Positions 4,630-64,000 of a stretch of 64,000 nucleotides of DNA are shown here, piece after piece. Below the pieces are notes generated by a model. The model was not told where the DNA came from. It searched no databases and saw only the letters and a program-made list of their open reading frames with translations. The translations under genes were made by a program, and so were the position numbers. This DNA comes from Strigamia acuminata (taxonomy: Eukaryota; Arthropoda; Chilopoda; Geophilomorpha; Linotaeniidae): assembly GCA_949358305.1 (NCBI GenBank), contig OX442318.1, forward strand, positions 7,116,501 to 7,180,500, written 5' to 3'. The number at the start of each line of letters is the position of its first letter. The first letter of the stretch is position 1.

Positions 4630-5610
4630 TTACAAGTTTGAAAAAATCGCGTCGCGTATCTGGAACCCGTCGGACCACGGCACCACTTTGGCCTTCATTT
4701 GATATGCGGGTCTTATTTCGTCGGAGATTTGTCTCTGGCACGGAAAACCGACGCGCGGGAAAGCCAAATCGGACGATTTTAGCCTCAACATGGGACAATA
4801 ATCGTTCAGTCCGTCGCCGACGTACGCTACGAATTTATACTTGAATTGGCTGTCGTCTCGCGAGCGGTGTTTGATAAATTCGTCTAGAATTGTGCCTTTG
4901 CATAGGTTGATTGCGCTCAGTTCGCACCAGTTCTGCTCGTGGTACTTGCGGATTTGCAGACATCCGTTGTTGTCGAATTGCGCCGGGTTGGTGAACACCG
5001 AGCAAAAATGCTCCTCCATGCCCTTCGCGCCGAGGAAAGTGTTGATGAACACGGAATTGCAGTCCGAGATGATGATTAAGTCGTGGCCCAGTGCGCTCAA
5101 GTTGCGGACAAGTTCCGGCATGCCTTTCGTCCACGAAATGTTGCCCAAAAGGTCGAGAAGGTGCGCGGCTTTCACGCCGGACGTGAAGAGAAGATCAAAC
5201 ACTTTTTGCATGTATTCGAGCCATTGGAGGTTGTGGAATTGTTCCGCTTCTTGGCCTCCGTTTGGGAGAAGTTGCTGCACGTGTGTGTCGCTGTTGACGT
5301 CGATTAAGGTCTTGTCGAAGTCGAAGGCCACTAGAATTTTGTTTTCAGGCACCTAGGTTGAAGGAAAAGGTGATTTGATTATTTTAAATTTGTTTAAAGA
5401 TTGGTTTTGAATGGTTTTTACCTTTGGTTTAAGCTGGAAAATCGCTTTGTTGTTATTGATGTCGGTTTTTAGGTTTTTGAGAGGTGAGTTGCCTTGGATT
5501 TCGTGACGGTAACGAGTGGCTGGGTAACGAGTAGCTGTGTACCGGGCGATCAAGTTGACGAAGTTGCGATGGAACGGAAACATTTTCGGGGGGTTGTTAA
5601 TTTCTTGCAA
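4630..5610 (-). CDS. PHOSPHO1/PHOSPHO2-like HAD phosphatase, two exons
   Basis: This is a complete two-exon gene. Exon 1 is 5422-5610 (63 codons, phase 0, donor AAG|GTAAAA) and exon 2 is 4630-5352 (acceptor CAACCTAG|GTGCC, stop TAA). They are joined by a 69-bp intron and give about 303 residues. Exon 2 carries the HAD motifs in order: DFDKT (nucleophile and acid Asp) near its start, IIISDCNSVF (motif II Ser), and YVGDGLNDYCP (motif IV). The family-typical VFTNPAQFDNNG lies between. Vertebrate PHOSPHO2 acts on pyridoxal 5'-phosphate and PHOSPHO1 on phosphocholine and phosphoethanolamine; which substrate applies here is not decidable by eye. Family members usually begin a few residues before the DFD motif, so the Arg-rich 63-residue extension is unusual. 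A second ATG at 5583 (MFPFHRNF) begins a presequence-like stretch that could target mitochondria. Confidence 0.85.
5353..5421 (-). other. Intron of the PHOSPHO-like gene
   Basis: GTAAAAACC...TTCAACCTAG, 69 bp. The in-frame TAG that seems to separate the two ORFs is the AG of the acceptor, so the upstream ORF and the catalytic ORF join without a frame change. Confidence 0.75.
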
Positions 5611-10564: not shown

Positions 10565-13250
10565 ATATATAAATAATGGGGTTCGGATGACTGTTGAATA
10601 GGTGAATTCAATCTTCAAAAAACCAATTGACTTATTCGTTTGAAATGACTTCTCCGAAGAAGATATGACGTTTTTTTTAACATCGTATCTCTGAGAAGTC
10701 AACTTGAAAGAATTCAAATACGAGGATTAATATTAAACGAAGTTGAAATGACTTCTTTGACTTATACAAGTGACTCATCTCTTCTGTATCTGCTATTGGC
10801 TATTTGTTACCGCATGTTTAGGTAGCCATCTTTTTAGTTCACTTTTTAAAGTGATTTAAGGAGAAGACAATTCGTCTTTGACTGTTTTTATTATGTTACT
10901 TTTAGTGGGCAATAGATGGCAGCACAATATGATTGCAAGAGTAAAAAATTGAGCGCTGACCTAACAATATTTTCAATTCTTTGAAACAAAAATTATTTAG
11001 CAAACCATGTAACATTCATATCATTCTTTATGAAGTGAACACAGAAAAACAATCTTCTTCTTTAACTGTAAGTTAACTGGTTGCCAGCAGGCTCTTTATC
11101 ATAATTAACATTATTATGTAAATGTTATTGTTCATGAGAGTGGTTAAAACCAGCTGGAAATTCAATTCAAAAATAAAACACCTTTCGGTTGTTACCATCA
11201 AATTTCTAATGCTTTTAAACAAAGTCCTGTGTGTAAAAATCTGATTATTAAAACAAAAAGAAACCAAGAAACTGGTAAATCTAATCAATAGAATGAGTAA
11301 AATCCCAATGGACCAGTGAATAATTTACCTCGGTCTACACAAATTCACAACAGGATTACAAGTTACTTCAACATGTTTTTAAAACCAGTGATTAAAAAAA
11401 ACTAATCAGTGTAATGTGTAATTTTGCATATCTCCCTGCCGGTTGCCAGCAGCAACCTCGTCTCACAATTCCAAAACAAATAAACTAAAAACAGGAATTT
11501 CTCCAATAAAATATCGACTTTTAACTCAAATTTTTTTAAATAATTTTTTTTTTTATAAAATGGTAAATAAAAACTCGATACTTACACAATATGTTGAAAG
11601 AAATTGACACCGTGACACTCCTCGAAAACGTGATATGATGAACATGGCAATGCAACAACACTTGATGGTGTTTGCGATTTACTTCAAAAGTTACATCACT
11701 GCGACTGTGATAAAGTCGTTCGGTTTCTAAATACTCTTCTTGAAGATGACTAGAAGAAGTTAGGTTAAGCCCGTTGCTTAGCAACCATTCAATCCTTGAC
11801 GGAGCCGGATTGGCATCTTTCACAACACACGAAAACGTCACTGTATTTTTCTCTCGGATTGTAAAAATCGTACCGTCGACTAGACGTCGGTCTTCGAACT
11901 CGATGTACGGTGTTTGGGGCGCAACTAGCGGGAAAAAGGTGACGAATTAGCTGCCACATTAAATAAGACATAGCAAGGTCGGGTTACGCCGTGTTAGAAG
12001 ATTTAAAACGAGAATTTCGTTTCAATGTTGACCTTTGTCTCGTAAAAGTCGTGCCACGAGTTTCACTGTGGTAACAGATGGCTTTTAGACACGACTGTCT
12101 CGGGTTAACGTTTGTCAGGGGCGGATCCCGAAAAGTCATTTTGGTTTATTTATTTTTATTTTTTTTAAAAAAATAATTTTTTTTTTGGTTTGAAATGTTT
12201 TTGTTGTCGTGTAAAAGTTTATTTTTTGTCTAAAATTGATTTTTTTGTCTAGAATTGAATTTTTTTTGTCTAAAATTGACTTTATATTGTCTAAAATTGA
12301 CTTTATATTGTCTAAAATTGACTTTATATTGTCTAAAATTGACTTTATATTGTCTAAAATTGACTTTATATTGTCTAAAATTGACTTTATATTGTCTAAA
12401 ATTAATTTTTTTTTCTTCTAAAATAGAATTTTGTGTCCTAACATCAATTTTTTTCTTCTAAAAATTGAAGTTTTTTGTTCTAAAATTTAATTTTTTTGTT
12501 CTAAAATTGAATTTTTTTGGCTAAAATTGATTTTTTTGTTCTAAACTTGATTTTTTTGTTCTAAACTTGAATTTTGTGTTCTAAAATCAATATTTTTGTT
12601 CTAAAATTAAACTTTTCTGTTCTAAAATTGAACTTTTTAGTTCTAAAATCGAATTTTTTGTTCTAAAATCGAACTTTTTAGTTCTAAAATAGATTTTTTT
12701 AGTTCTAAAATAGATTTTTTTTGTTCTAAAATAGATTTTTTTTGTTCTGAAATCGGATCCGCCGTTGACAATTAAGCTATCTTGCACAGCACAAGTCACG
12801 TCCAACTAGCTCTAACTCTAACGTTCTGTTAATTCTCCATCCAATGCTACCACCCAAAGTGAGCACAACAACAAAAATCGCCGACCAACTCACCCACAAC
12901 AATCAGTCGAATCGGCTGCGATGTAAATGTGAGCAATTCCTGATTCTCAGGAATCTCTTGGCAGTGCCACACCCCGTCATCTTCAATGCCTACGTGAGCA
13001 ATGTGAAGCACGTGGATGCCGTGAGTGGCATTAAAAAAAGGACGGCGTCGACTCTTTTCCACTTCGTTCTTCGACTCTCGCGACTCTTCGCCGGGAAGTG
13101 GCACCGCTTCTCCGTTCAGTAGCCACCGAATGATCGAATCACTTTTGTAGTTCGGGATTTCGCACTCGAGATTTACAGCCTCTCCCGGCGCCGAGAGCAC
13201 TTCGTCTTGATGATTTGAAAATTGTACATTTGATGCTGTCAGAATAAAAT
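7257..13250 (-). CDS. Five-Ig-domain cell-adhesion molecule, partial gene (8 exons)
   Basis: Exons, in coding order: 13250-12894, 11924-11586, 10494-10372, 9683-9534, 8814-8694, 8631-8477, 7675-7497, 7416-7257. Every junction is GT-AG and phases match (1,1,1,1,2,1,0, ending 1). They encode about 528 residues forming five Ig domains: Ig1 (exon 1), Ig2 (exon 2), Ig3 (exons 3+4), Ig4 (exons 5+6), Ig5 (exons 7+8). Cys-Trp-Cys cores are clear in Ig1-4. Ig5 lacks the usual second Cys (EFVFLV) but has another in NINCYK. A V-type first domain and a second domain ending ...HHQVLLHCHV suggest a nephrin/Kirre/echinoid-like surface receptor, with low certainty for the exact family. The signal-peptide exon (above 13,250) and the membrane and cytoplasmic exons (below 7,257) were not identified. 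Confidence 0.8.
7497..7675 (-). CDS. Ig gene exon G: first half of Ig domain 5
   Basis: 179 bp, phase 1 to 0. It encodes KPFVEPLNQTLIAIVGKS, VQYCANPIPSRAYWIVQ and PGETSGRFSARNITR. The acceptor is AAATTAG and the donor AGG|GTAATT. Confidence 0.75.
7800..8110. repeat. Degenerate AAGATTT simple repeat in an Ig-gene intron
   Basis: Loosely periodic motifs (GATTTCGAAGATTTACTAA and TTTACAGGATTTCTTTAAAG each appear twice or more). This creates spurious ORFs rich in F, R and I. Confidence 0.7.
8477..8631 (-). CDS. Ig gene exon F: second half of Ig domain 4
   Basis: 155 bp, phase 2 to 1. It completes the split Lys codon from exon E, then encodes VKEGGGLENVASEHNLRFD and NDAGVYKCITRNRKE. The acceptor is TTTCTCTAG and the donor ACAG|GTAAAT. 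Confidence 0.8.
8694..8814 (-). CDS. Ig gene exon E: first half of Ig domain 4
   Basis: 121 bp, phase 1 to 2. It encodes DIPEITDQPPPPQIQMG, VMLECASEED and SYCWAK. The acceptor is TTTCTATTGTAG and the donor CTAA|GTAAAA, the least canonical donor in the gene. Confidence 0.7.
9534..9683 (-). CDS. Ig gene exon D: second half of Ig domain 3
   Basis: 150 bp, phase 1 to 1, too short for a standard ORF list. It encodes GGGYLNFSSITKEHAGWYRC (E-F strands with the second Cys) and then HEFGHFASFGYFLNVR. The acceptor is TTTTCCTTGTCAG and the donor CGGT|GTAAGT. Confidence 0.85.
10372..10494 (-). CDS. Ig gene exon C: first half of Ig domain 3
   Basis: 123 bp, phase 1 to 1. It encodes SRTPGFGYPITEG, VSLKCEVDANPSS and PQWVK. 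The acceptor is TTTTTGGTATTGCAG, immediately downstream of an (AAAT)n tract; the donor is AAAG|GTATGT. Confidence 0.85.
10504..10566. repeat. (AAAT)n microsatellite at a splice acceptor
   Basis: About 15 uninterrupted AAAT units, read as (ATTT)n on the gene strand. They end less than 10 bases from the acceptor AG of Ig exon C and therefore occupy its polypyrimidine and branch-point region. Confidence 0.95.
10590..10880 (-). mobile_element. Diverged copy of the GGTGCATTCAAT element
   Basis: The reverse complement matches the interior of the Harbinger-like element at 61,284-61,898: TCTCCTTAAATCACTT, then GAACTAAAAAGATGGCT, CGGTAA and ATAGCCAATAG in the same order. It lies in an Ig-gene intron. 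Confidence 0.6.
11586..11924 (-). CDS. Ig gene exon B: Ig domain 2
   Basis: 339 bp, phase 1 to 1. The acceptor is CCCGCTAG and the donor TTGT|GTAAGT. The domain begins APQTPYIEFEDRR and carries VTFSCVV, RIEWLLS and VLLHCHV. The order is typical of the second, C2-type domain of nephrin/Kirre-like receptors. Confidence 0.85.
12114..12770. mobile_element. hAT-like MITE with an internal minisatellite expansion
   Basis: The ends CAGGGGCGGATCC (from about 12,118) and GGATCCGCCGTTG (to about 12,768) are inverted, and the CAGGGGCGGATCC terminus is a common hAT MITE end. The interior is almost entirely a TTCTAAAATTGATTTTTTTG-type tandem array. No clear 8-bp target duplication was seen. It fills most of the intron between Ig exons A and B. 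Confidence 0.55.
12215..12752. repeat. AT-rich minisatellite, unit of about 19-20 bp
   Basis: About 27 copies of TTCTAAAATTGATTTTTTT variants. One sub-block (12,275-12,400) is a homogeneous run of TTTATATTGTCTAAAATTGAC. Repetitive ORFs appear in several frames and are not coding. Confidence 0.95.
12894..13250 (-). CDS. Ig gene exon A: Ig domain 1 (V-like)
   Basis: 357 bp, phase 1 to 1. The acceptor is a T-run then GTCTTTGCAG, the donor GTGG|GTGAGT. It contains VNLECEI, IIRWLLNGE and DDGVWHCQE, the B-, C- and F-strand cores, with an N-glycosylation site in FFNATHG. GC content is well above the flanking introns. Confidence 0.85.
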
Positions 13251-13462: not shown

Positions 13463-13483
13463 CATTTCTGATGTCTCACTTTG

Positions 13484-13646
13484 CTGATCACCTGTTTCCA
13501 TTAGGACACGTGGTCAGGATTTACTGGGAGGCCCCATTGTCTCTCATCCTTTCTGATCTAAGCCGTTTCTATGGCAACAAAACATCAGCTACAGTCTCCA
13601 ACTGGGTTTTTGTGGTTCCTCACGCTGGAGGGTCGGGTCAGGGTTG
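13484..13646 (+). mobile_element. 5S rRNA-derived SINE-like element, copy 1
   Basis: The head CACCTGTTTCCATTAGGACA, then GTGGTCAGGATTTACTGGGAG, is a 5S rRNA gene with internal deletions. It shares private changes with the fuller head at 35,441-35,520. The body ATCCTTTCTGATCTAA...CTCCAACTGGGTTTT...GGGTTGG matches 53,238-53,345. Confidence 0.6.
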
Positions 13647-13779
13647 GATTTTGATATTGAGGGGCCCTAAACTACAACAAATAAGGGTCCCTTTTTTTTT
13701 AAAGAAAAGGTTTGTTGTTCTTGCTTGGTATTCGCAGGTGGCTGCCTTTATTGGCATTCAAGTGCAGTATAAATAAAGG

Positions 13780-29154: not shown

Positions 29155-29700
29155 AATCCAACAATGAAATGCAACAATTCAATCAATCCAACAATTGAAA
29201 TTCAACAATTAACCTGAATCCAACAATGAAATCCAACAATTAACCTGAATCCAACAATGAAATCCAACAATTAACCTGAATCCAACAATGAAAATCCAAC
29301 AATAAAATTCAACAATGAAATTCAACAATAAAATTCAACAATGAAATTCAACAATGAAATCCAACAATAAAATCCAACAGTGAAATCCAACAATAAAATC
29401 CAACAATGAAATCCAACAATAAAATTCAACAATGAAATCCAACAATAAAATTCAACAATAAAATCCAACAATAAAATCCAACAATGAAATCCCACAAAGA
29501 AATTCAACAATGAAATTCAACAATCCACTCAATCCAACAATGAAATTCAACAATTAACTCAATCCAACAAAGTAATGCAACAATAAAACTCAACTGGACT
29601 AAAAAAAGCAACAATCCACCCAAAAATAACACAATGACCTGCAACAGTCTCCTCAATCCAACATGAAATCAACAATAAACACAATTATTTTAAAACCAAC
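29155..29700. repeat. Minisatellite, unit AATCCAACAATGAA (about 14-15 bp)
   Basis: More than 25 variants of AAATCCAACAATGAA or AAATTCAACAATAAA. The array decays at its right end. It generates a W/F/L-rich minus-strand pseudo-ORF. Confidence 0.95.
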
Positions 29701-31204: not shown

Positions 31205-32735
31205 GGGTATACACTTGAACCCTTATCCGATTTGATATTTTTCCCTTCCCTCACACATACAAGCAACAATAACAAACAACACATTTCCTTTCCATTTCAA
31301 CCTCCATTTCACTTGCAATGACCCCACAATTCACGGATCACGGGTCGAATGCAACACAGTGGCGGCTTTCAACCTAAATGCACCAACTGCATCTTCCCAT
31401 TGTAAATCAATTGAGATTGCGGATGTTAACCCGGTCCATAAAAATAAAACCCCGTATCAAAAACTGCATTGGATTAATCACATTTCCAGCTATTTATCCG
31501 CCATTGTGTCGCGCGTGAGCGTGAAATGAGGAAACTTGAACACGACAGCAACAGACACGAGTAAATCCACTCGAGAAATGAGTAAGATCAGTGGAAGACA
31601 ATGTGAGTGATTTACATGCGTACAACAGATTATAAGAGATTACACGAACCGTAAATAAAGATTCGTTGAAGTATGTAAAACGAGACGAAAAAGATAAATG
31701 CAGCATCATTTCGCAAGAAAAGCGGTAAAGTGAAATAATATTGGACCCACCCAGTGTTTTTAGAGTTTTTTTTTAATTTCTGGTTTTTCAGAGGTCGAGG
31801 AACTTTAATATGATAAGGATTACATAATACGGGTAATTTTGCGGCAGGAAATGATCGATGTAGACGGCCACAAATGCTTTTTTAATTGGAATAGATTCGA
31901 AATGACTGCAGTTGACATATTGCTTTGTGCTGACATTTGACCATTACCGGACTTGTCGGCGATCATCTGACGTCGTTGAACTCAGCGACAGAAATTCAGA
32001 TTTTGGATGCTCCAGATTAAATTATGTATGGATTATGGGCCCTCGAAATAAAACCAATATGGATTTTTGGGCCCCATCTCAAACTTACGTTTCGCCAAGT
32101 CCCAGAGTTCTTATGGAGGTTCTGCCGGGCCTCCAAATAATTGCAAAAAAGATTTTTTTTATATCAAATTTTCTTAGAAATTTGAAAGCGCGGGACCCCT
32201 CTAAGTGCAGAGTCTCAGTCCAAGTAACAACCAGCAACAACAATGCCACGATGCAAAACAATTCGCATCAAGAGATGGCATTAAAAACACTACAACACTA
32301 CAGAATAATTCAATTGTTAGACTATGAGTCTGTGATGCGAGTTTGTCCTGTGATAGTGGCGCCATCTATGGCTGAAAAGACACAAAATGACGTCATTTTG
32401 CGGACAAATGGCGGCGGCAATTACCCGCAAAAAGTTTTAGCATTGAGACGACTGATGGTGCTTACTTCATTTTATATGGGACAATATAGATTCAGGAAAA
32501 ATGGCGGATGGGAAGTCCTGTAGTTAATCGTCCTACAGGTTCTACGTTGCGGCAGAGTTACTGTACTCTAAACCGATACAACGTTGACCTATTTCCAATT
32601 GGTTGAGCTGGATTACACCTAACTGTGGATGTGGACTGTGCTCTGGATTTTATTTATTTGGTAATAAAATGTTTATTTAATTTGCTAAATTTTTTTTTTC
32701 TCATTTTGTAATTGCATGAATTATTTTTTATATTT
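31205..32735. other. No gene accepted; one 203-codon ORF of doubtful status
   Basis: The plus ORF 31,912-32,523 has no domain or signal peptide and an unlikely composition. GGGCCC-containing phrases in it recur near 13,660 and 43,893, suggesting transposon-derived sequence. Confidence 0.45.
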
Positions 32736-35119: not shown

Positions 35120-35440
35120 AGTTTTCACATTTTTACCCCCCAGTCCAAATCCAGAGTCAATTTCTGTCTAAACATTCATGTATTATTTCTATAATAAAGA
35201 ATAAAATCATAATAGAACCAAAAAATATTTTTTGTGCATAAATTGCACTAGGAACATTTAATTACTGTACTCTTTTATTGAAATTACAGGTAACTCTTGT
35301 TTGACGCTGTTATTTCGTCCCTAGTGTAATCAGTGCTAAGTGAGTAGGTATTTAATCCATGTATATTCGTGTGCTGCCCTCTATGCCACACGCGAACAGC
35401 GTTACAGCAAATCAGCATGTAGGAACAATCACCGCACTAA

Positions 35441-35556
35441 TCACCTGTTCCCATTAGAACACAGAAGTTAAGCAGCATTGGGTCTGGTCAGCACTTGGAC
35501 GAATAATCTACTGGGAATTGCATTTATTTTCGATCCTTGTTTGATCTAAAGTGGAA
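35441..35556 (+). mobile_element. 5S rRNA-derived SINE-like element, copy 2 (best 5S head)
   Basis: AGAAGTTAAGCAGCATTGGG and TCTGGTCAGCACTTGGAC, then CTACTGGGAA, align across the internal control region and 3' half of 5S rRNA (box A, IE and box C positions). The upstream CACCTGTTCCCATTAGAACA is diverged in the same way as in copy 1 (13,490). The tail GATCCTTGTTTGATCTAA matches the start of the copy 1 body. Not a functional 5S gene: its 5' third and 3' end are altered. Confidence 0.65.
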
Positions 35557-35559
35557 AAA

Positions 35560-37250
35560 ATATGGAGTACATCTCCATATTTTTTCACCCTGGAACAACT
35601 AAAAGTTTTTTCACAAACAGACAATTTGGCCCAAAGTGACTCCGGTTTCTACGACAAACACACCCGTTTACCGGCATCTTAGCAGCACTCGTATGTAAAA
35701 TTTCCAAAAGTTGGCCCTTTTACTTATAACAGCATGCTACAGTATACTGGGGACACACTATCAGGCGCAAAGTGATTTTGACGTCATCAAAAATGACATT
35801 AGGTCACACCTGATTGGCTGCGATCAAAATCGAAGACCAAAAAGTACTTCAGAAATAACAAAGTAAGATAAAGTAATAATTACAGAAGATTAGATGAAAA
35901 CAACAAGTGAGAAATAATACAAGCGATATAAAATGTAATTATTGCTCAATTTCCACAAAGTGTTACACTATTAAAACTTAATCTTACAATAAGAACCTAC
36001 TATATTACCGAAGACGGTAGCACTTTGCCAAGTGAACTTGCTAATGAACTTCCTGTAGCTTTACTACATAGCAACATTTAGGTTGGTATCTTCGCGCTTT
36101 CCAAGGCTGACTCACTTGGCTTGCTATTTTTGGGATGATTAGATTTACAAAGCAGAATACATTCATTGGGCTCTCAATGTGGAAATTCCGCTGAGTATTG
36201 TCCACATGGGAGCCCGGATATTTCCACAAGCTGCCCTCAAGGTAATCATATCATCCTGAATAACATATTCTCAGTCCGTATATTTTATTGACCCAAAAAA
36301 TGTGTGAAGAATGAAGAGTGCAAGAGGAAAGTTCCACCTGGAAAGCGAAAATTCTACACAAGTTCATTTTGCTAAAAATGCTTTTTCACGTGCAAAAATT
36401 GACATTTTTAATAAACATTTTTTATTCCAATTCAAAAATGGTCCAAAAATCAAAGTTGGTGTTATTCAATTATATTTTCCATTAAACTTTAAAATTTCAT
36501 TTAAAAATCTCATTTTTTTAACCAAACATGTTCCACCACAATTTCCACTATAATCCTCTTTTTTCGCTGACATTTTAAATTTTTCTCATGCACAATCTCC
36601 GTACTTCCTCCTCAGTTTAGCCACATTTTTCAATGCTCCTCATTACATACCATTAATACTGCATGAAGAAAACATGAACTATTCATTTCAATGCAGAATT
36701 CAATTAAATTTGAATAATTCATTTTGTTTACCTTATTTATAACCACAATTCTACTTCTTCTTCTAAGCAAATTATTCATAACTTTTCCTTCAGCTTGGTG
36801 TGTGTATACACATGGTACATGCACATTGGCCATTGCACAAGGCACTTCTCGATTCACCTCACATTTTTTAGGTCAATAAAAAAAACGGAATATGTTTTTC
36901 AGATGATATGAGTAAGTCCACCCTGAGGTCAGCTTCTGAAAGCAATCTTATTTCGCAGCGAACAACCGACTTGCTGTCTTCCGAATTGAACCAAAGAAAA
37001 AAAATATAGGTTTGTCCCATAATAAACTGTGATATTGCTAAAACTACATTTTCCTGATAAGAAATCTTTTTTGTCATCTACGTCTTTATTGCTTGTTTGA
37101 TGTCATTATCTTTGGTCAGACTCGCTTAATTATTAACAACTCACAAGATAACAGTAATGAACTAGACTACAAATAAGCCACGTGAGTGTAATGAATATTT
37201 TATGAATTCAGCTTTAAACGGAAATCAGTTTGGACAGAATAAAAACAATT
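35560..37250. other. No gene recognised
   Basis: Short ORFs only. 36,330-36,560 holds a degenerate AAAAATTGACATTTTTAA-like periodicity resembling the window's minisatellites. Confidence 0.45.
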
Positions 37251-49254: not shown

Positions 49255-51288
49255 GGAAAGACTTTTGCAGCATCAAAAAACAGAACCTCACTGGTTGAAA
49301 TCAAGTCTTTTACTGATTAAACAATACATAAAATAATTAATAGTGGTAAAACTGACCACAAGGATAAAAAAAGCATAAAATAATACGTATTTAAGAAGCC
49401 CTGGTCTAAACCCTGCCCCCAAATTTCTGTTTAGAAAAAACAAAATGGCTCCAACTCCATGTTTCCTGCCCCATTGAAGAAACTAAACAAACCATTCTTA
49501 GTTTCTCAATATCCAAGCCTCTGCCACAGCAGCCAGAAAAAAACTTCACTTTTATTTCAAGAATTTACTTCTGGAGAAGCAGGATTGAATGCAGCTATTG
49601 TCTGCGATACAATGGGCACTAAATTGAGTTATTGAGACAATTAGAAGTCTAAAAATAGAATGCATTACTTGCCAAATGCAGGAAAGCAATTCAGTGGAAA
49701 CTTGAAGACAATGCTTCTTGCTTTAGCTCGATGTATATGGTAATGTGAAGTTTATGTCTTCAGATACTACAGCATAAATTTCTCTACATACATGAGGGCC
49801 TACTGTATATAGTCACCCATCAGTTTAATCTATCGGATCTCCAGAGATCTTTTCTCTTTAGTCTTTATCAAGAGTCAGCTAGTTCCAGTATTGCTAAGGA
49901 GTGTGAAAATCATGCCACAAGCTCATGATAGAAATTCTAAACATCAAAAGTTACCACTAATTCCAGAGACGGAAACACGAACAAGCAATACCAATCACCC
50001 AACTTAACTTAGAAATGCAAGACAGCTGCGAGTTCATTTCAACCACAAATGCAATTTGTTATTCTACACTAATGATAAAATAAATGTAAAACCACAGATT
50101 TGTCAAATACCTCTTACATTAGACCACAATACTATCCAGAATCTCTCAAGAATACAAGCCATAATCTTTTAAAAGACATGGAAAAAAAAAATCAAAGAAA
50201 TCCACCGGTTTCACCTTGCAAATCCCTTGAAATCTCCTGCCAAACCATGTGCCTAACTTGCATCAAGCAATGTTTGCTGCAAGCAGTGAAAAGGTTCAAG
50301 GTTGTGTCCTCAAGATCATGATTTGCATGGCCCAATAACCCTTATGGGCATTCAGCCTAAGCGGTCATGACCGTGCTAAGCAAGGCAATCCCAAATCTTA
50401 GGAAAATCAAAAGCGTGATGTGGAAATTAGATGTCCATCTTGTATAGACAAGATGGAATGGATTTATGGAACCCACGCTTTTGACATAGTCAGCTTATGT
50501 TGCATAGTTATTCTGCCAGACACATTTTCGTGGACAGCATGCTTTCGCAAATTGGGATGCTGTTGGAATAAACAAAGATAAAAATCATAATATTGACTTA
50601 TTTTTTAATACAAAAATTAAAGGAAATCAAAATCAATACAGAAATAAAGTTTTAGCGGCAAAAATTCATATTTTCATGGTGACACAATTTTGTGGACACC
50701 CAAGACACAATTTTGCGGACACCTAAAAACGTCGCCAAAAACAGTGATCAGAAAGAAGGCATTTCTTAATGATTGATTTTCCAATCGCATAAACTATAGA
50801 GGCAGACGGTTACAAATTAGAAGCACACATACATCACTTGTTAATGTATAAAAAATCAATTCGCGCATTATTGGTCACACATCGAATAATAACCTTTGGC
50901 TCAGAGGTTAGAGGATAAACTATTGCTGAGAGTTGAAAGTGAAGCAGAGCCTATTGGAGCTGAGTGCAGTCGACATAGTAAGCTTGGGGTTTGCACATAG
51001 CATGTTAAAGGACCCTTGTTGGAAATAAAGTTCAGATATGTATAGTTTGCCTGCATGAAGCCCCTGCTTGCAACTCTCCAGCTAAAACCTAAACCATGTC
51101 AGAATGAGAGCCAATAAAAATACTTCTAAAAAATTTAAAAATTCCAAACTGCCAAACTAAAGTTTACTTTCATTCCTCTTGTGAAAAAGAGTACTAAACA
51201 ACATTTCTGTTCAACAAAATGACTGTATTTATATACAGTGTAACCATATGATTAAAAAATATATTTTACAAATATCGGATTTTATCGA
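49255..51288. other. No gene recognised
   Basis: AT-rich. The 73-codon ORF at 50,100 lacks any domain. GACACAATTTTG-CGGACACC-like phrases repeat at 50,680-50,720. Confidence 0.45.
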
Positions 51289-53215: not shown

Positions 53216-53235
53216 AGGAATCTCCGTCGTTTCTC

Positions 53236-53345
53236 ATCCTTGTCTGAATAAGATACTGTTTCTACGGCAAGAACATCTGCCACCCACCTCCAACTGAGTT
53301 TTCTGTGTTTTCCCAGCTCTCGACGCAAATGCAAGGTTGGGTTCT
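53236..53345 (+). mobile_element. 5S-derived SINE family, copy 3 (body only)
   Basis: TTCTCATCCTTGTCTGAATAAG, TGTTTCTACGGCAAGAACATC, CTCCAACTGAGTTTTCTGTG and CAAGGTTGG align in order with the body of copy 1 (13,541-13,646). The 5S head is absent. Confidence 0.5.
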
Positions 53346-55265
53346 TAAGAAAGTCATCCCACAGATCACGACTCGCACGACCTAAATCCCCACTCAAGTA
53401 TTCTACTTACACAGCCATGACCATGCGAAGTGTCACACTACTTATACTTACATCCCTCGTGCTAAAATAAATTATCGATAACTTTTTCTGCAGTTGTAGT
53501 TTGATAATTTTTCTCGCTCTGTAACTAGACTGCTTTAATTAAACCCCATCTTTACTTGTCAATACAGTAGCTGCATTCAAAAACTAAAATATTTTGTGTT
53601 TTACTTCAATTTTAAACCAAAAATGACGTCATTTGTTCACATGAAAGAACGATGCTTTTTCAATCATATCTTTTTTGTTTTTTGAAATTTTTAAAAATTA
53701 TTTACGTTTTCTGAAAGACCATGAGCTATTTGTGTTAGAATTTAAAATATTTGCTTTCTAAGAAATCATTATAAATCTTTTTTTTTGCCAATTAAAGATA
53801 CTACCACAAACATGTGAACAATTTTTTGAGTCACTGTACAAACATTCAAGTTACGAACTTTCAGAGATGTTGAAATGTCAAACATCTCAGGCAATGTTGT
53901 CAATCCGACCCCATTGGTCATATTGACCCGTTTTGTCCTAAAAACGTTAAATTGTTATTTGTAGGGTTAGGATAAATGCATAGGAATTATTTTTATTCAA
54001 TAAGATCCGAAATTGGCTATAAATGCATATTTTCCAAAAATCAGAAATAAATGCATAAATTGCCATTTTTCCGGAAAAAACCGGCGATTTGTGTCTACGT
54101 AACATGTTCGTATCAATTTATGCCTTTTTTGGGTATACAAGATACAAACTTTAAATTTTTCGGCAGTTAGTTCGCACGTTTAGCGTCAGCACTGCATACC
54201 CGCTGTTGTACTTTTCAAAGTAAGATTGAAAATATTTTCTTTAATTAAAATTAACAATTTTTCCACCGATGCCGGACTTACGAACAACTTGCAAACCCAT
54301 TCTCAAAACAGAACTCGTTCGTGTGTAGAAGACTTACCGTACCCTAATTTCCAAATTATAAAACGCAAATGATCAAACTGCAATTCCCTTTTAAAAAAAT
54401 ATAAATATTATTTCACCGCACGATTAACGTTCAATAATTTTTCTCTTCCACTTGACAATTTCAAGCTTTCAAAGCTCGAAATGATACATGGTCATGGTCC
54501 AAATTCACCACATACATCCAGGAAAGGATTCGAGTAAACCAAGCTTAAAATCGAATGGGGCAGGCAAAGTACCGAATATAGCGTAATACGAGCGCCATTT
54601 CACCGATCGTGCGCATTCAAGTGTTTTGTTTGCTTGTCCTCGTGAATAATTCAGGGCCATGTGTTAAGGGCTTTGTGGTGGCGCCCACCGAGTCACTTTT
54701 AGTGTCTATCTTCGCCAGCAGTTATTCACAAACGATGATCTTTTAATGTTAGCGGACGAAAAGAAATCGGTTTTTCTCCAAACTCCATTTGGTTTTGTCT
54801 AGTGGCGACATAAAAACCTTCTTCGAGGCTTGTGGCTTGTCCGTGTTATTTCTATGGGAAGAATTTATTTTTCTTGTTAGAAGTTTTATGGGAGAAATGT
54901 GAACATTTCCTGCATGTTTTTTTGTGTTTTCGAGTTTAATTTGAGATGATCTTTGTGGGTTGGATTTAGTTTTGTCAATAGAGGTGGTCTTTTACTCTTT
55001 TGTACTCAGAACCGGAACAGACGAGCATGGTCACAACAGATGTTGGGGTAGGATAGGTTAGGTGTACTTATCGAAGGAGGGGTTGGAGGAAATCGGGTGG
55101 AAAGACACTTGAAAGAATAGTTCCAACAGTGCCGGTTGACTGGCGATTTGCCACGATAACAGGAAAGGTGGTTGATTGATGCGAGACGGGGCGATTTGGA
55201 CTTGGGATAGTGCGGATTATTCTTTTGTTATTTTAAATTTTAAATTGATTTTTTTTTTATCTAGA
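53345..55265. other. No gene recognised
   Basis: 53,568-53,632 is the second copy of the 42,168 repeat. 54,560-54,740 is CpG-containing and less AT-rich, possibly a promoter or UTR, but no exon can be supported. Confidence 0.4.
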
Positions 55266-62754: not shown

Positions 62755-63670
62755 TGTGTTCGTTTTTAGATCCGCTTGTTGTATCGTTTTTGCGTCACAA
62801 TCACGCGAGTACATGGCGCATAAAAATTCCATTTCTTTCATTTAACCAACGAATTGAGGTTGTGGCCCCTTATTTAAACATAATTTAGCATTTACTCACA
62901 TCTTGGGAGGCGAGTGCTTCGCCTGAAAGTGTTTATGACACTTGAAAGTCTGATCCGTCGATCTAACGTTCGATAGGCTGCCATTTTGAATTTGGTTGTA
63001 AAAACCAAATCCCGGCATAAACCGATTCATAAACCACTCCAGTCGTGGTTTTGGTTTTTGTGGGTTTTGGTGATGGTTCTTGGCTGTTTTTGATGCCATT
63101 CCATTTATAGAAACGGTAAAACCCATCAAAACCGGAACTTTGAACGGGCCAGACAAGGATTTTTCAGTTGTCAGACAAAGTATGGGTGAGTGGTAGATGT
63201 TCTTGCCATAGAAACTACCTTGTGTATGGTCGGTCATTCAAGTACTGCCCATGCCTAATTCTGCTCAACCCATGCGTAATAACGGGATCGGTTAGAACTT
63301 GATTTTCAATGCGGGAATTAATTTTTCCCCTCATAATGGGATCGGAGTGATCGGCATGACCGTTAGTTTGGTATCCATTACACCGCAAACTGCGTTCTGC
63401 TTGCGATTAATTAACTCGGAAAAGAAGTACACCGTTATTGTCCAGACAGTAAGCGTTTGTAGGCAGTTGGGACTAAAAATACTCGGATCAAATTGTCGTT
63501 GCATAAATCAACGTTGCGTTCGAAAACTCTAAAACGACCGTTTCTGTCATTTAATGATTTTCCAGGTCGAGCTTCGTATTTTAAAAGGCTCGAATTCATG
63601 CATCTCGTTTTAGGAAACACGCTTAGTTGAAACCGGACCAGTTACCCCAAATAATCGTTATAATCGGACC
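62755..63670. other. No gene recognised
   Basis: Short ORFs on both strands, none with domain, signal or splice support. Confidence 0.45.
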
Positions 63671-63674
63671 TAAA

Positions 63675-64000
63675 ATTTATTTTTTGAATGAAAAATTCAT
63701 TTATTGGACAAAAAATCATTCTTTTAAACCAAAAATTAATTTTTTTGAACCAATAATTCATTTTTAAACCCAATAATTCATTTTTAAACCCAAAAATTCA
63801 TTTTTAAACCCAAATATTCATTTTTAAACCCAAAAATTCATTTTACGACCAAAAATTCATTTTTAAGACCAAAAATTCATTTTTAAACCCAAAAATTCAT
63901 TTTTAAGCCCAAAAATTCATTTTTAAGCCCAAAAATTCATTTTTAAGCCCAAAAATTCATTTTTAAGCCCAAAAATTCATTTTTAAGCCCAAAAATTCAT
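63675..64000. repeat. Minisatellite, unit CCCAAAAATTCATTTTTAAG, running off the window
   Basis: About fifteen 19-20 bp units become steadily more homogeneous towards the right edge, where five are identical. The array continues beyond the window. Confidence 0.95.

Follow-up and report, generated by a model that had tools for sequence, protein, structure and literature searches.

The genome of the geophilomorph centipede Strigamia acuminata very probably carries a dispersed family of SINEs of the SINE3 kind, headed by a 5S rRNA sequence, whose copies are diverged and likely inactive, with transcription by RNA polymerase III and reverse transcription by some LINE as the likely means of their spread. 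The family came to light as a possible 5S-derived SINE in three places within a single stretch of chromosome 5 (contig C6, positions 7,116,501 to 7,180,500), and this whole stretch of 64,000 nt is referred to here as the window. That reading is supported by the assembly as a whole (237,517,015 bases in 157 contigs), and none of the findings that might have spoken against it, i.e. few copies, an inconstant head-body junction, or a location within a 5S array, appeared.

SINE copies in the window

The stretches at 13,484, 35,441 and 53,236 from which the family was proposed are all present, and the private head changes and the junction said to be common to the first two are real. BLAST comparison inside the window ties the three stretches together and also shows a segment at 63,185-63,215 on the minus strand. 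A profile search, using a profile built from 28 loci of which none is from the window, recovers all three (35,429, E 2e-32; 13,472, E 4e-18; 53,217, E 2e-63) together with two diverged fragments; the three linked copies of the original prediction are thus confirmed as copies, but the window contains five. The 53,236 copy was described as sharing only the body, and it does have the body, but it begins at profile position 94, about 20 nt or less before the head ends. The copies and the features associated with them are as follows:

13,472-13,618, plus strand: SINE copy 1, profile positions 5-188, with a 5S head carrying an internal loss, the junction, and body
13,484-13,543, plus strand: the 5S-derived head part of copy 1, with a net loss of 34 nt relative to the consensus
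35,429-35,547, plus strand: SINE copy 2, profile positions 9-127, with a nearly complete 5S head and about 15 nt of body
35,541-35,598, no strand assigned: hairpin-like inverted repeat, a separate sequence after what is left of the body in copy 2
53,217-53,449, plus strand: SINE copy 3, profile positions 94-327, starting inside the head and continuing through the complete body, linker and 3' end
50,284-50,387, plus strand: SINE copy 4, profile positions 199-315, a diverged fragment of body and 3' end (E 4e-6), absent from the original prediction
63,291-63,184, minus strand: SINE copy 5, profile positions 25-166, a diverged head-to-body fragment (E 1e-10), likewise absent from it

Copy 3, which includes the 3' end with ACTTATACTTA, is the best kept of the window copies, with a Kimura two-parameter (K2P) distance to the consensus of 0.12. 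The head of copy 2 contains a tag identical to that of the family, and the Rfam 5S model matches this copy at 35,417-35,535, scoring 39.9 bits where the gathering score is 38. Copy 1 is at a K2P distance of 0.25, its net 34-nt shortfall lies between GATCACC and CTCATCC in the zone from box A to box C, and a weaker likeness to the 53,217 copy extends to about position 13,650. When 13,484-13,646 was used as a genome query, three other places were among the matches listed, and we think the number is small because copy 1 is both diverged and partial. The head at 35,441-35,556 and the body at 53,232-53,350, used as queries, gave 235 and 288 candidates, respectively, and the best 40 of each were taken, with the queries themselves included. 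As a control, the fetched loci and the window were read backward (362,033 bases) and searched with the profile, and no match was seen at E<=100.

Other features of the window include long AT-rich tandem arrays at 12,222-12,753, 29,155-29,554 and 63,668-64,000, with units of 13 to 60 bases, and an open frame at 4,630-5,352 on the minus strand encoding a PHOSPHO1/2-like phosphatase, with its best match (76% identity) to an S. maritima protein.

Consensus structure and genome-wide spread

Distinct loci around the genome matches were fetched (77 less three duplicates, leaving 74), and the alignment and profile were built from the 28 of these that passed a filter requiring head and body to be nearly complete and uninterrupted. 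All 28 align through the same junction, which bears out the expectation of a consistent boundary between head and body. The resulting consensus is about 330 nt long and consists of a complete 5S rRNA head that starts GGAACGGC and ends CCCAGTTGTTTCTCA, a body of about 150 nt (consensus positions 113 to 260, approximately), a variable linker at 261-300 with 68-71% identity to the consensus, and a conserved 3' end, GACCATGCTAAGTGTCACACTACTTATACTTAT, which is followed in some copies by short tandem repeats of ACTTAT. The 3' end is defined by about 13 alignments at positions 321-329 and differs from the consensus in some copies; the family 3' end sequence suited to comparison with LINE 3' ends is GACCATGCTAAGTGTCACACTACTTATACTTA. 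The 5' end is not sharp, and among 49 alignments that reach the start, seven have AGGATA and 13 have GGAT before it. Two TTTT runs are present in the consensus, at 176 and 186, and these could stop RNA polymerase III. Six-frame translation covered two loci, L112 and L113.

The consensus head and a dispersed 5S gene of the host can be aligned over their full length, with 97 of 120 aligned positions identical. Identity is unevenly distributed, with 31 of 45 positions identical before position 45, 47 of 53 in the zone 45-97, and 19 of 22 thereafter, such that the best-kept part of the head corresponds to the internal promoter zone, the limits of which we take to be 45 and 97.

Tags for three parts of the consensus were used to estimate the number of copies, allowing at most three mismatches. 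The head tag CACCTGTTCCCATTAGAACACAGAAGTTAAG has 102 matches in the genome, the junction tag 88 and the 3' end tag 16, and each of these tags read backward has none. Merging the 188 places listed for the first two tags (100 of the 102 head places and all 88 junction places) yields 175 distinct dispersed elements, 92 on the plus and 83 on the minus strand, with a median gap between tagged elements of 393 kb, in agreement with the many copies expected of a SINE. The head and junction tags occur together in 13 loci, 44-191 nt apart, and this small number is expected if each strict tag misses most of the diverged copies. The flanks of known copies (111,575 bases) contain 14 further profile matches, eight of which belong to the fetched copy itself, as collinear remainders on the same strand; the other six scale to about 13,000 copies per genome, and the five copies in the 64-kb window to about 18,500, both figures being rough and biased upward. 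No profile match besides the 5S genes themselves is present in the roughly 25 kb that surround eight dispersed 5S loci. The family total is thus probably in the range of thousands to about twenty thousand, fragments included, as a rough and upwardly biased estimate.

The tagged elements are not evenly distributed among contigs. C6 has 28 and C11 has 18 (11.9 and 7.2 expected, respectively), C8 has one of the 175 where 10.8 are expected, and C13 has none where about 7.6 are expected, if C13 is the 10.34-Mb Y.

Probable retroposition, age and the host 5S genes

Some copies lack the start of the consensus. In 18 of 20 alignments that start at profile positions 60-150 and pass position 200, no head is present within 250 nt upstream. 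Six of these 18 are headless in appearance only, being split by an insertion (L003, L037, L070, L098 and L106) or altered by a deletion internal to the head (L097). The remaining 12 start at different points and have no common upstream sequence longer than 24 nt, a staggered pattern consistent with reverse transcription that began at the 3' end and stopped early. A 146-nt upstream match (95%) between L050, i.e. the 53,217 copy, and L098 was considered as a possible alternative head and rejected, as in L098 it is an insert between head and body.

We considered whether the body is the true mobile unit, either a SINE in its own right or a LINE fragment, to which a 5S head was recently joined in a subset of copies. 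Headless copies do exist (12 of the 20 in the class tested), and the excerpted account of lepidopteran HaSE3 describes a chimera of 5S and tRNA SINEs (PMC3272025). We nonetheless regard this origin as unlikely, since the headless copies start at varied points and have no other head in common. No second head type was found on the same body in the 20 alignments examined, and no tRNA gene was found in the window or upstream of the 18 headless-looking alignments. Moreover, divergence from the consensus is about the same in both parts (identity per 20-nt block is 80-91% in positions 1-120 and 82-90% in 121-260), and head and body therefore likely travelled together.

A second alternative is that the carrier of the unit was not a LINE but either a non-autonomous DNA transposon or some LTR-type element similar to Ajax or Cassandra, the LTRs of which contain 5S pieces, and two lines of evidence could be read in favor of this alternative. 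First, the target duplications that the original prediction anticipated are not clearly above the crossed-pair control over 93 alignments. The mean best match is 4.76 for 17 full copies against 4.96 for crossed pairs, 5.08 against 4.75 for 24 copies cut at the 5' end, and 4.90 against 4.86 for all 93, with scores of at least 8 in three alignments where 1.7 are expected. Some LINE types make no target-site duplications, and with copies about 16% diverged, short duplications could have been erased. Second, LINE-type endonucleases are scarce, whereas candidate reverse transcriptases are many: Exo_endo_phos_2, a domain typical of many LINEs, has ten genome matches among 30 candidates scored, and RVT_1 has 4264 candidates, of which the best 150 were scored. 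Transposition by either type of carrier is nevertheless very unlikely, because no terminal repeats were seen, the 5' end (GGAACGG) differs from the 3' end (ACTTATACTTAT), and both the varied internal starting points of 12 of the 20 tested copies and the short tandem repeat ending some copies fit reverse transcription from the 3' end.

LINE-driven retroposition thus remains the preferred reading, and it is the anatomy of the copies that points to this putative route, namely a promoter-bearing head, staggered starts, and a repeat-like 3' end. RNA polymerase III would transcribe the element, starting from the 5S internal promoter of the head, and the 3' end of the transcript would be recognized by a LINE reverse transcriptase and copied by target-primed reverse transcription. 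A co-resident LINE with a common 3' end had been suggested as a partner, and none was found among the matches listed. Two places containing only the 3' part of the consensus were rejected as LINE candidates, both being SINE copies. None of the ten LINE-type endonuclease places is within 600 kb of the tail places among the matches listed, and the 150 reverse transcriptase candidates scored yielded no partner; our guess, from frame length, is that the top RVT_1 places are mostly LTR-type. On the simplest view, the partner LINE decayed or was lost and took the SINE with it, such that the family would have become extinct along with its LINE.

The copies look old. In 95 alignments covering at least 80 sites each, K2P distances to the consensus range from 0.087 to 0.58 around a median of 0.163, with three window copies counted twice, the second time as fetched loci, and a few shorter alignments excluded. 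With the consensus as query, the best 40 of 826 candidates are 79-92% identical to it, three short extra pieces being recovered as well, and as no near-identical copies are seen among these 40 it is likely that the family is no longer active. Later insertions have split several copies, the collinear remainders of which are 319-969 nt away, and the inserts in L003 and L070 have terminal inverted repeats at their edges, as expected of old, fixed insertions.

The inserts in these two loci (L003 spans C6:10,934,571-10,937,648 and L070 spans C11:3,913,642-3,915,700) are MITE-like, about 420-450 nt long, and begin TATACTCTGGCTCACCG and GGCGCATTCAATAACT, respectively. By eye, a likeness to the insert end of L003 is present beside the L065 copy and, reversed, before the 53,217 copy in the window. 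A repeat with inverted ends near CAACTACAGGACTTC is also present in L112 (C1:8,855,480-8,856,380), inside or next to a SINE copy, and matches window positions 32,307-32,535.

The true 5S genes of the host are organized as a tandem array on C8 (2.04-2.44 Mb, with a unit of about 202 nt), and others are found on C1 and C3, either alone or as inverted pairs. Ten dispersed 5S genes (L006-L011, L017 and L020-L022) are nearly identical to each other, some forming inverted pairs 520-570 bases apart. A CTTTATA box is located at -32/-33 in nine of the ten, T-runs follow all ten, and the SINE body follows none; the box and the T-runs suggest that these are working genes with an upstream element. A SINE copy would leave the box behind on insertion elsewhere, and this counts against the mechanism proposed here. 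An origin of the SINE copies as separately arisen 5S rRNA pseudogenes, or as degenerate units of the array, can be dismissed as extremely improbable. In its favor, the head represents an entire 5S sequence, one copy is recognized as 5S by Rfam, and the host does have dispersed 5S genes besides the array. Against it, the head tag is present at 102 places with none of the 100 listed on the array contig C8, as was anticipated for copies lying outside the array, the ten dispersed 5S genes examined run into T-runs rather than into the SINE body, and the 28 aligned loci share the private changes of the head, the junction and the body, the common body being what refutes this origin.

Relationship to other 5S-derived elements

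Several features that characterize SINE3 elements are found in the centipede family: a 5S-derived head with the A, IE and C promoter zone, a non-5S body joined at a constant junction, many dispersed copies outside the 5S array, and a length of about 330 nt, under ~500 nt. SINE3 elements have been reported, in the excerpted accounts, in vertebrates, moths, a beetle and a fungus. No report of a 5S-headed SINE in a myriapod was found in the literature searched, which did not extend to the supplementary repeat table for S. maritima, and no earlier description of this family was found; it is an addition to the known SINE3 kind. 5S-headed SINEs are a minority class, and a myriapod family with a full-length 5S head would widen the range of their hosts. 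If the family is common to S. maritima, it could give a dated class of markers for centipede phylogeny, and it would also offer a test of the fate of a SINE when its LINE disappears.

The affinities of the body are less clear than those of the head. No occurrence of body sequence strings was found in literature text, and external matches to a gapped motif of the body (one in a viral contig and eight in prokaryote genomes) were rejected as unlike the element by profile, the best having an E value of 0.03. The body does align with what we take to be a repeat common in insect and crustacean genomes, with a score of 20 against 10.5 +/- 1.7 for shuffled sequences and none of 2000 shuffles scoring as high; this repeat is a lead only, since its sequence was chosen in view of the similarity itself. 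The body could be the Nin-domain, a deeply shared SINE body domain that is reported, in the available parts of PMC3899998, to occur in arthropods. The Nin-SINEs described in the portions seen of PMC3747384 and PMC11121367 have tRNA heads, in contrast to the 5S head of the centipede family. We offer only tentatively, and with some doubt, a broader scenario in which an ancient Nin-like SINE domain, common to arthropods or perhaps to eumetazoans, was captured by a complete head of host 5S type, and the resulting family gave rise to thousands of copies and then died at the near-total loss of LINEs, leaving an orphan SINE in an LTR-dominated genome. In the excerpted description of the S. maritima genome, 71 5S copies are reported, as well as an expansion of tRNA-Ala that may be a mobile element (PMC4244043).

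The closest parallels by description are the insect families HaSE3, PxSE4, PxSE5 and SINE3-1_TC, which, in the excerpts of PMC8010984 and PMC3272025, similarly combine a 5S head containing the A, IE and C zone with a non-5S body. Several insect SINE3 elements end in a short tandem 3' tail, as do some of the centipede copies, and the moth families are reported to have hundreds to thousands of copies (PMC8010984, PMC3272025, as excerpted). The centipede copies look older, with a median K2P distance of 0.16 compared with averages of 0.078 and 0.132 given in the excerpts for PxSE4 and PxSE5, although the measures may differ. The family also departs from the insect elements in its centipede host and in that no partner LINE or clear target-site duplications were found, and the likeness is one of anatomy as described.

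The vertebrate SINE3 elements or DeuSINEs, such as AmnSINE1 and zebrafish SINE3, also have a 5S head (PMC3747384, in part). As described there, they have a 3' end in common with a CR1-like LINE, whereas the centipede family has no assigned LINE. Ajax and Cassandra provide a further parallel, in that a 5S promoter has been captured by a non-autonomous retroelement (excerpts of PMC10886601), as here. In contrast to these LTR-type miniature elements, no LTRs were seen in the centipede family, and it carries a complete 5S sequence at its 5' end.
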